27,489 nucleotides of DNA, taken from a virus. Location: positions 1 through 27,489 of the IMG/VR virus record IMGVR_UViG_3300048033_000488; one strand, given 5' to 3'. Position numbers and translations under genes: made by a program. This document shows positions 15,249 to 24,461 of this stretch, one piece after another; positions within the stretch are counted from its first letter, which is position 1; the number at the start of each line of letters is the position of its first letter. The notes under the pieces were generated by a model that was not told where the DNA came from, searched no databases, and worked only from the letters and a program-made list of their open reading frames with translations.

Positions 15249-15576
15249 CTACCTCCTCAACCTCAAAGGTCTTTAGCCCCTCATGATGTATCTCTTGGCG
15301 CTCTACATAGCCCCTGCCCTTACCTTTTGTCTTCAGGTAGAAAATGGTGCTACTAGGGTTGCCACCCTTTATCTGTTTATGTAACTGGCTCTCTGCAAAA
15401 TCTAAAGCTACATTAGCTAAGTCAGCAACTCCTGCTTTATAAGCCTCATCCTCACGCATCCACCTGTAATGAGTCTCCCTGCTAATACCTACTGCCTTAC
15501 AGGCACTGGTAACTATACCTAAGCTTTGCTCAAGTGCATCTAGCATAGCCTTTTTTGTTATGTCATTATTTGCCAT
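15235..15576 (-). CDS. Terminase small subunit-like protein
   Basis: 113 residues. A helix-turn-helix lies near 18-45 (IVTSACKAVGISRETHYRWM), followed by a helical region and GRGYVERQEIHHEG. This is the layout of small terminase subunits that bind phage DNA and start packaging. It directly precedes and overlaps the large subunit. The start at 15576 lies in a short divergent region that also holds the + strand promoter of the tRNA-like gene. No Shine-Dalgarno site is visible; the leader is AGAGAAAAAACAA. Confidence 0.8.
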   Translation of the reverse strand: MANNDITKKAMLDALEQSLGIVTSACKAVGISRETHYRWMREDEAYKAGVADLANVALDFAESQLHKQIKGGNPSSTIFYLKTKGKGRGYVERQEIHHEGLKTFEVEEVDDQD

Positions 15577-15607
15577 TTGTTTTTTCTCTTAACTTGTCTT
15601 ATATTGT
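15576..15607 (+). promoter_or_regulatory. Bacteroidetes-type promoter for the tRNA-like gene
   Basis: TTTG at 15576-15579 is followed after 20 nt by TATATTGT at 15600-15607. The Bacteroidetes sigma consensus is TTTG, then TAnnTTTG about 20 nt later. Transcription would begin about 15611-15615, a few bases before the acceptor stem at 15618. The only feature on the + strand that it could serve is the tRNA-like gene. Element match and distance are read directly; promoter activity is inferred. Confidence 0.6.
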
Positions 15608-15617
15608 CATCAGTTAT

Positions 15618-15687
15618 GCGGTAGTAGTGTAATAGTAGCACATCTGGCATCCAGCCAGAAGGTGAGGTGCAAATCCATCCTACCGCT
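15618..15687 (+). tRNA. tRNA-Gly(UCC)-like gene with non-canonical features
   Basis: The 70-nt gene folds as a cloverleaf. The acceptor GCGGTAG/CTACCGC is perfect (15618-15624 with 15680-15686). The D-stem is GTGT/GCAC (15627-15630, 15638-15641) with loop AATAGTA. The anticodon stem TCTGG/CCAGA (15643-15647, 15655-15659) encloses loop CATCCAG, anticodon TCC at 15650-15652. The T-loop is TGCAAAT (15668-15674). GCGG at the 5' end and T at the discriminator (15687) are bacterial glycine features. Departures are A instead of G18, A instead of U33, TGC instead of TTC in the T-loop, only two clean T-stem pairs, and about 2 nt missing from the variable/T region. No CCA is encoded. It runs opposite to all protein genes and abuts the Mom-like stop codon. 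Confidence 0.8.
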
Positions 15688-16350
15688 CTAAGTAGCCCTC
15701 CTCTCTTGGAGGGTTATTTTTTCCCCCTTATACATACCAGCACCCCTAGCATCTATCTCGCTAAATGGTATCTCAGGTTTTGTAAGCACACAGGTTTTAT
15801 CTATTAAGTAGACATACTTCATTTGGTACCCCTCAAAGGGTTTCCATTTACGGAACTCACTGGACATCTTTAAGTGGTGTGCCTGTATTACATGCATAGC
15901 CTCTCCTGTATCAGGGTTTATCCTTAGTGCTGTGTTTTCTGCTATGCCTACAAGTTTAAATCCGCTTGCTCTATATATGGTGCCATCACCGCACTGCGTT
16001 CCATCTGCAAAGCTTATTACCCACTTTATGTGGGGTGCGTTCTTTTTTATAAGTCGTATGCTGATAGCTATACAACGGCTCTCGCTATACTTAGGCAGGT
16101 AATCATCAAAGGCCATTCTGTTGAGTTCTATAAACTCATTCCACCCTGTACCCTCTACTAGGTTTATTGTGCCCTTCTTATTTATGCTTGGCCCATAGCT
16201 TAACACTCCGTGTAGCTTCCCATCAAGAAAAGCCCCAAAGTGGAGCTTGCTGTTTGGCACTACCTTACCTGAGTAGTGGTGCTTCTTTACAAAGTCATTA
16301 GCCACCTTAGGTGGTATCACCTTAACCCTTATTTCTTTTGCTCTGCCCAT
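15688..16350 (-). CDS. mom: Mom-like DNA base modification protein (GNAT fold family)
   Basis: 220 residues. The pattern matches phage Mom-type adenine modification proteins: FVKKHHYSGKVVPNSKLHFG (20-39), then HGVLSYG, FIELNRMAFDD (73-83), ESRCIAISIRLIKKNAPHIKW, VISFADGTQCGDGTIYRASG (111-130). Phage Mu Mom converts adenine to N6-carbamoylmethyladenine and protects DNA from restriction. Mom is a GNAT-like fold, but I see no typical R/QxxGxG/A acetyl-CoA loop here. The start overlaps the ParB-like gene by 22 nt. The last codons contain, in antisense, the terminator of the + strand tRNA-like gene, whose final base abuts this stop. Confidence 0.75.
   Translation of the reverse strand: MGRAKEIRVKVIPPKVANDFVKKHHYSGKVVPNSKLHFGAFLDGKLHGVLSYGPSINKKGTINLVEGTGWNEFIELNRMAFDDYLPKYSESRCIAISIRLIKKNAPHIKWVISFADGTQCGDGTIYRASGFKLVGIAENTALRINPDTGEAMHVIQAHHLKMSSEFRKWKPFEGYQMKYVYLIDKTCVLTKPEIPFSEIDARGAGMYKGEKITLQERRAT
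15696..15722 (+). terminator. Terminator of the tRNA-like gene, inside the Mom-like gene
   Basis: On the + strand CCCTCC and GGAGGG form a perfect 6-bp stem with a TCTCTT loop, followed by TTATTTTTT. It starts 9 nt after the tRNA-like gene. It lies within the last codons of the Mom-like gene on the other strand, where the same bases encode ITLQERR. There is no U-run in the minus direction, so it acts only on the + strand. Confidence 0.75.
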
Positions 16351-16922
16351 TGGGATACTATTAAGTAAAGTGCGTTACCATTGCCATTCTCATTACCAAA
16401 GGTTTCTACATATTTGTACTCCTCTGTTTTCTTAATGTCATCAATAGCGTTTTTAATAATCACCTGCTGCTCATCTGCCATTGTAAATGTCATCTGCTGG
16501 AAGGGGCTTTTATCCCCATCAGGTAAATCAAAGCTTTCATCAAACTCATCAGGGCTTAAATCAAAGCCCCCTATATCTATACCCCAGTCCTGAAGCTGGT
16601 CTACATCCCATACATTAGCTAGCAAATCCCAATCCCACTCACCAAAGCTGCTGTTGTCCTTTATAATGAACTCCATCTCCTGCTCAGGTGTAAGGTTATC
16701 AGCAAACACCACTGGCACCTCTGTTAGGCCTGCAGCCTCACAAGCCTTAAGCCTCATGTTGCCGCCTAGCACTATCATATCCTTATTAACTACAATAGGG
16801 CGTAACTCTAGCATCTGTGGTAACTCTGTGATGCTCTTTACAAGTTTCTGGAACTTGCTATCCTTAATGACTCTTGGATTGTTTGGGTTTGGGCGTACCT
16901 GCCTGATATCTACTCTTTCCAT
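16329..16922 (-). CDS. ParB-like N-terminal domain protein
   Basis: 197 residues. The ParB/sulfiredoxin-like domain spans about 1-95: NPNNPRVIKD at 12-21, ELRPIVVNKDMIVLGGNMRL (39-58) with the GGNMR loop, and EVPVVFADNLTPEQEMEFIIKDN, then GEWDWDLL. An acidic C-terminal region follows. Phage proteins of this type often stand beside or are fused to DNA-modifying enzymes; here the partner is the Mom-like gene, overlapped by 22 nt. Some superfamily members bind NTPs or act as nucleases or kinases. Which of these applies cannot be told here. The leader is GGTTTTATAATTATGG. Confidence 0.8.
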   Translation of the reverse strand: MERVDIRQVRPNPNNPRVIKDSKFQKLVKSITELPQMLELRPIVVNKDMIVLGGNMRLKACEAAGLTEVPVVFADNLTPEQEMEFIIKDNSSFGEWDWDLLANVWDVDQLQDWGIDIGGFDLSPDEFDESFDLPDGDKSPFQQMTFTMADEQQVIIKNAIDDIKKTEEYKYVETFGNENGNGNALYLIVSQWAEQKK

Positions 16923-24269: not shown

Positions 24270-24401
24270 TTAACCTAAATGTTCTCTCATTTCTAGTTCC
24301 TCGTACAAGTATGTAATAGCTAAATTGTAATCACCTTTAGTATAAGCTAACATTTCTCTTACTGCTTGGTCTGTAAATGGGTGGTTGTTTGTTGTTTTCA
24401 T
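24270..24401 (-). CDS. Small 43-aa helical protein
   Basis: 43 residues: a short start MKTTNNHPFTDQAVREMLAY and a helix ending in EELEMREHLG. The pattern DQAVREMLAYTKGDYNLAI is helical with a turn. It carries the leader AAGAGCAATG and sits about 60 nt after the RusA gene with a TTCCTTTG promoter-like site between them. The function is unknown. Confidence 0.55.
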   Translation of the reverse strand: MKTTNNHPFTDQAVREMLAYTKGDYNLAITYLYEELEMREHLG

Positions 24402-24461
24402 TGCTCTTTGTTTTTGTTTAACAAGTCAAAGGAATAAAAAAAAGTAATTCTCCTACAAATT

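Follow-up and report, generated by a model that had tools for sequence, protein, structure and literature searches.

The window analysed here, a 27,489-nucleotide stretch of DNA from a virus, carries a reading frame at 15688..16350(−) that encodes Mom, a DNA-modification enzyme of 220 aa with a GNAT fold. Membership of the Mom family is given by PF25680 (162.8 bits, cut-off 27.1) and PHROG 1384; the protein also matches phage Mu Mom (PDB 8bv8, E 1.8e-23), to which it is homologous and whose fold it shares, an AlphaFold2 model (pLDDT 87.9) having 8bv8 as its top Foldseek match (E 5.5e-18). The start of mom is overlapped by a gene for a ParB-N-like protein (16329..16922, −), which matched PHROG 498 and 620 and scored just under the cut-off for PF02195 (26.2 against 26.3 bits); a ParB-N-like neighbour of Mom is likewise seen in Psychrobacter phage Y8A, locus L239 and the Dehalococcoides islands. 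Convergent with mom, at 15618..15687(+), lies a tRNA-Gly(UCC)-like RNA, preceded by a candidate Bacteroidota promoter (15576..15606, +; TTTG at 15576–15579, TATATTG at 15600–15606) and followed, 8 nt past its end, by an intrinsic terminator (15696..15723, +; hairpin CCCTCC-TCTCTT-GGAGGG, then TTATTTTTT). Elsewhere in the window, a sub-threshold Rfam match to EBv-sisRNA-1 at 24371–24456(−) (21.3 bits against 58) was taken as chance.

The RNA is genuine and has a tRNA-Gly(UCC)-like fold. It belongs to the Rfam tRNA family RF00005 (44.4 bits, gathering score 29, E 1.5e-6) and has a folding z-score of −4.6, with 0/200 shuffles equally stable; ARAGORN called no tRNA at this position. The acceptor stem pairs 15618–15624 with 15680–15686, leaving U73 (15687) as discriminator, and CCA is not encoded. 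The D-arm (15627..15641) has four pairs, with A (15634) at the position of G18 and G19 retained (15635). The anticodon arm (15643..15659) has six, the additional one being a C-G pair between positions 32 and 38, which the first-pass annotation had missed; owing to this pairing the open loop, AUCCA, is only 5 nt, and in it the anticodon UCC (15650–15652) follows an A at position 33. The T-arm (15664..15679) consists of a 4-bp stem, GAGG/CC(A)UC, in which the A at 15677 bulges out, and the loop UGCAAAU (15668–15674). Covariance analysis brings out three oddities in this fold: the sixth anticodon-stem pair, the bulged-A T-stem, and losses at G18, U33 or Psi55. The earlier readings of A at 18, A at 33 and TGC in the T-loop hold, as does that of a variable/T region about 2 nt short (8 nt separate anticodon stem and T-loop, against 10). 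With A33, A18, G55 and a bulged 4-bp T-stem, the RNA departs from a decoding tRNA-Gly and is probably unfit for normal protein synthesis; by contrast, the bacterial glycine-identity set, comprising U73, G1-C72, C2-G71, G3-C70, C35 and C36 (PMC9976931, Table 1), is complete in it.

Selection on this structure was assessed in an alignment of 26 distinct homologues over 21 pairs, with shuffled and slid alignments as controls. Standard pairs occupied 99.6% of cells, two-sided changes were found at 16/21 pairs, and the 141 compensatory cells were reached by 0/500 shuffles, the slid controls falling far below too. The D-arm pairs covary, the variable pairs include the unusual 32-38 (C-G in the window, U-A or A-U elsewhere), and the bulged T-stem shows compensatory changes at all four of its pairs with pairing 99% kept. 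The first-pass annotation had called this stem weak, which it is not, and its argument that a weak stem lowers EF-Tu binding loses that premise, although the bulge itself would probably also disturb EF-Tu binding. Its statement that the gene is not simply decaying was right: the stems do not decay, and compensatory changes at 16/21 pairs exclude a tRNA pseudogene. An alternative T-arm, taken from the minimum-energy fold of the single sequence (7 pairs, GCAA loop), was rejected, being only 59% paired on the alignment, a level not exceeding that of shuffles. Further copies turned up in 16 other contigs when viral contigs were searched for an exact 24-base match, and an RNA profile run against Mom loci recovered much more diverged relatives; a nucleotide search of a phage collection with the RNA and its flanks as query gave chance hits only. 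A covariance model of the family (R1), built with the window RNA included, scores that RNA at 94.7 bits.

The RNA is associated with Mom, whichever of the two is sought first. Four DNA patterns, each taken from a different RNA subtype, retrieved 83 RNA-bearing contigs, and a Mom-family protein was present in 79/83, mostly less than 100 nt from the RNA; the other four contigs end where Mom would be, so that 79/79 contigs of sufficient length carry it. Near-identical RNAs accompany Moms that are just 25–31% identical (L002, L180), which speaks against the simple descent of a single locus. In the opposite direction, the 26 homologues served to build a covariance model, a search method that favours RNAs resembling the model; by it, all of the closely related viral loci (80/80) had an RNA where mom stops (E < 1e-14), although viral loci and contigs are redundant. 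A second clade of Moms, sharing about 25% identity with the window Mom, had the RNA in 67/80 loci, or 67/77 testable ones, three of the 13 misses being truncated by contig ends. Contigs from bacterial genomes gave model matches in 18/26 Mom loci, of which 17/26 counted as beside Mom (at mom, shortly after it, or past a second tandem mom, up to about 1.3 kb); the match left out, near the Mom of Faecalibacterium (L134), lies 1.3 kb upstream and has no bulge. The RNA-bearing bacterial loci belong to Bacteroidota, Pseudomonadota, Actinomycetota, Acidobacteriota and Bacillota. Tandem mom pairs occur in several bacterial loci (L124, L126 and L129, and the genomes behind L127 and L123).

Not every Mom has the RNA nearby. 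On the Mom tree, RNA-bearing enzymes fall into two clades, separate and supported, and the label changes at least seven times; model searches of the loci of Mu and 17 other more distant Moms found no RNA nearby; hits in L105 and L110 were an ordinary tRNA-Trp and a tRNA cluster, respectively. Evenly sampled genomes (395 Bacteroidota, 391 Clostridia) showed chromosomal Mom to be rare, and in the Clostridia sample the RNA lay beside 1/4 strong non-query Moms, the other 3/4 being without it. The RNA is therefore not obligatory for Mom, and Moms with no RNA nearby, Mu-type and clostridial ones included, would have to draw on host Gly-tRNA or some other donor.

Orientation bears on how the RNA could be expressed, and on whether it is a gene in its own right. 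Among the 80 viral loci, 44 have the RNA opposite Mom's strand and 36 on the same strand. An RNA opposite Mom cannot ride on the mom transcript, and such RNAs usually carry their own TAnnT(T)TG box, which we take to be a Bacteroidota promoter element: the box was present in 35/41 distinct upstream regions where the RNA opposes Mom, compared with 9/67 where it shares Mom's strand. Phage tRNAs may mark attachment sites, and CCA is not encoded in the window, so the RNA could in principle be a pseudogene, the scar of an integration or no more than an element for mRNA processing at the end of mom; against this stand the compensatory cells, unmatched by any shuffle, the occurrence of the RNA on either strand relative to Mom and the promoter box of its own when opposite, and we regard such an origin as extremely improbable.

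What the family keeps is chiefly what a glycyl-tRNA synthetase (GlyRS) reads. Across 119 distinct RNAs, U73, G1-C72 and C2-G71 were present in 119/119, G3-C70 in 113/119 and C35C36 in 118/119, while pair 4-69 varied freely; to judge from the sequence set in PMC9976931, the RNAs of the family thus have the identity nucleotides expected of GlyRS substrates. What it loses concerns decoding, and here the counts of loop, T-loop and bulge are descriptive, as the search model may favour some decoding-loss features. The open loop within the six-pair anticodon stem was 5 nt in 65 RNAs, 6 nt in 45 and 4 nt in 8, a Watson-Crick 32-38 pair was seen in almost all of the 119, the T-loop began with TTC in only 68/119, and a one-base bulge interrupted the T-stem in 113/119 (A in 108, U in 5). 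After U73, 110/119 RNAs continue with C[A/T/C]A (CAA 60, CTA 29, CCA 21), a trailer, at 15688–15690 in the window, that is CCA-like with a loose middle base. Psychrobacter phage Y8A, described as tRNA-free (PMC10434257), has two tandem RNAs between mom and the terminase gene (L096:4662–4803), matched by neither ARAGORN nor Rfam, in which the D-arm is nearly absent and the bulged T-stem, UCC and U73-CCA (here encoded) are retained. The RNA at L342:1235–1304 also has an encoded CCA and an almost missing D-arm, and L131:4810–4983 holds two diverged tandem copies without the T-stem bulge, one with GATC in its anticodon loop, possibly a decaying pair.

Decoding loss is not uniform, since some family members retain G18, U33, TTC and a 7-nt loop, and it has to be asked whether this is an ordinary phage tRNA-Gly that supplements GGA decoding and is somewhat degenerate in this phage. 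Rfam scores the RNA as a tRNA, many homologues have the UCC anticodon, several retain G18, TTC and U33, and ARAGORN detects 55/147 family RNAs, 43/147 as tRNA-Gly. The first-pass annotation had held that an ordinary tRNA with errors in this copy would show homologues with G18, U33 and TTC restored; some do regain one or another of these, one at a time, yet they still lie beside Mom and have the bulged T-stem and the additional anticodon-stem pair, with no drift in their stems, and many homologues have 8-nt or 6-nt anticodon loops. A supplementary tRNA would moreover leave unexplained the constant presence of Mom beside it, whichever of the two is sought first, the lack of any other tRNA in 683 kb of RNA-Mom loci, the 53/119 RNAs whose open loop has 6 or 4 nt, the bulge in 113, the near-universal 32-38 pair and the D-arm lost in phage Y8A, and we consider it quite improbable. 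The acceptor identity set, U73 and a UCC/ACC/CCC anticodon are shared with canonical bacterial tRNA-Gly(UCC), and the tRNA-Gly of the Larkinella host too has GCG...CGC-U73; canonical tRNA-Gly, however, lacks the bulged T-stem and the 32-38 Watson-Crick pair, and the family model gave host tRNAs at most 49.6 bits, compared with 81.7 for the Mom-linked RNA in the same genome.

The annotation's suggestion that the RNA is a structured glycine tRNA used outside translation remains the best reading, and the Mom neighbour suggests the use. The product of Mu Mom from adenine in DNA is alpha-N-(deoxyribofuranosylpurin-6-yl)glycinamide (Swinton 1983, as cited in PMC4461284), for which an acyl-CoA such as glycyl-CoA was put forward earlier as donor (PMC7824862). 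That proposal is weakened by the CoA-binding GNAT motif (R/Q-x-x-G-x-G/A), whose glycines are mostly Ala or Ser in Mom. We consider it quite probable, judging by its conservation pattern and its pairing with Mom, that the RNA is a dedicated, host-charged glycyl-tRNA that does not serve the ribosome but supplies Mom with glycine for the hypermodification of DNA. Host GlyRS would charge it, as the retained glycine-identity nucleotides suggest, after CCA addition by the host; once charged, the RNA would be kept off EF-Tu and the ribosome by its altered anticodon loop, T-arm and D/T contact; and Mom would take the glycyl group from it to build glycinamide at the adenine N6 of phage DNA. The balance, dA + Gly-tRNA = glycinamide-dA + tRNA, is exact, as N6-glycyl-dA and the known product of Mom are isomers, and a single acyl transfer followed by an internal N-to-N rearrangement could suffice, with need of neither CoA nor redox chemistry. 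It is, in more general terms, fairly likely that Mom is a glycyl-tRNA:DNA transferase, fed in many phages by a private tRNA-Gly of their own that is kept out of translation.

Two other roles would also account for a Mom neighbour. The RNA might be a substrate of Mom (bound, or modified, for example at the bulged A), its guide or its regulator, rather than its donor: the bulge is A in 108/113 bulged T-stems and Mom acts on adenine N6, and since excess Mom is toxic (PMC4461284), control would help. Invariance of precisely the nucleotides read by GlyRS, at acceptor end and anticodon, is left unexplained by such a role, the bulge is U in 5 RNAs, and we think it unlikely. Alternatively, because anti-defence genes cluster in phages, the Mom link might reflect only a shared anti-defence role, with the RNA as a decoy against defences that attack tRNAs, such as anticodon nucleases or Gly-tRNA-acetylating toxins. 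One such toxin is TacT, a GNAT enzyme that acetylates Gly-tRNA and reads U73 and G71 (PMC9976931). A decoy, however, would not have to be adjacent to Mom alone, in either orientation, in several phyla and with both Mom clades; the anticodon loop of the RNA has been changed, not mimicked; no RNA was seen beside other anti-defence genes without Mom among the 79 testable contigs; and this role appears highly improbable.

For the donor role there is a cellular parallel. In Staphylococcus aureus, a non-proteinogenic tRNA-Gly is charged, spared from EF-Tu and feeds FemXAB in making the pentaglycine of peptidoglycan; like the phage RNA, it is altered at residues 18–19 and in the T-stem and serves a non-ribosomal transferase (PMC4052509). 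By these signs the phage RNA may be a non-proteinogenic tRNA-Gly of the same type, although it is phage-borne, lies beside its presumed enzyme, has a bulged T-stem, a 6-bp anticodon stem and odd loop sizes, and its putative acceptor is DNA. Phage Mu, in contrast to the window, has no tRNA-like RNA near mom. The literature search for a Mom-tRNA link, among open-licence papers, returned only the unexplained observation of McMurdie 2011 (PMC3146451), a tRNA-Gly-like locus with a 'DCC' anticodon and a 5-nt loop, embedded in mom in 16 modules of Dehalococcoides ssrA islands that carry ParB and Mom; no function was proposed for it. From its description it is very likely the same RNA family, although it lies inside mom rather than after it and was reported as a primer target, unlinked to Mom function. 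Nor was a precedent found, among open-licence papers, for an aminoacyl-tRNA partnering a DNA-modifying enzyme. The parts are of known kinds (tRNA, Mom, tRNAs diverted from translation), and the novelty is their combination.

Were the donor role true, Mom would be the first known case of an enzyme that passes an amino acid from tRNA to DNA, and the adaptor of translation would be joined to DNA modification and phage anti-restriction. The Mom product was described in 1983, and in the later sources consulted its donor is still discussed as an acyl-CoA (PMC7824862); the answer would then be encoded beside mom, offering a ready route to reconstitution of Mom in vitro, and an RNA family would be defined that tRNA finders mostly overlook.
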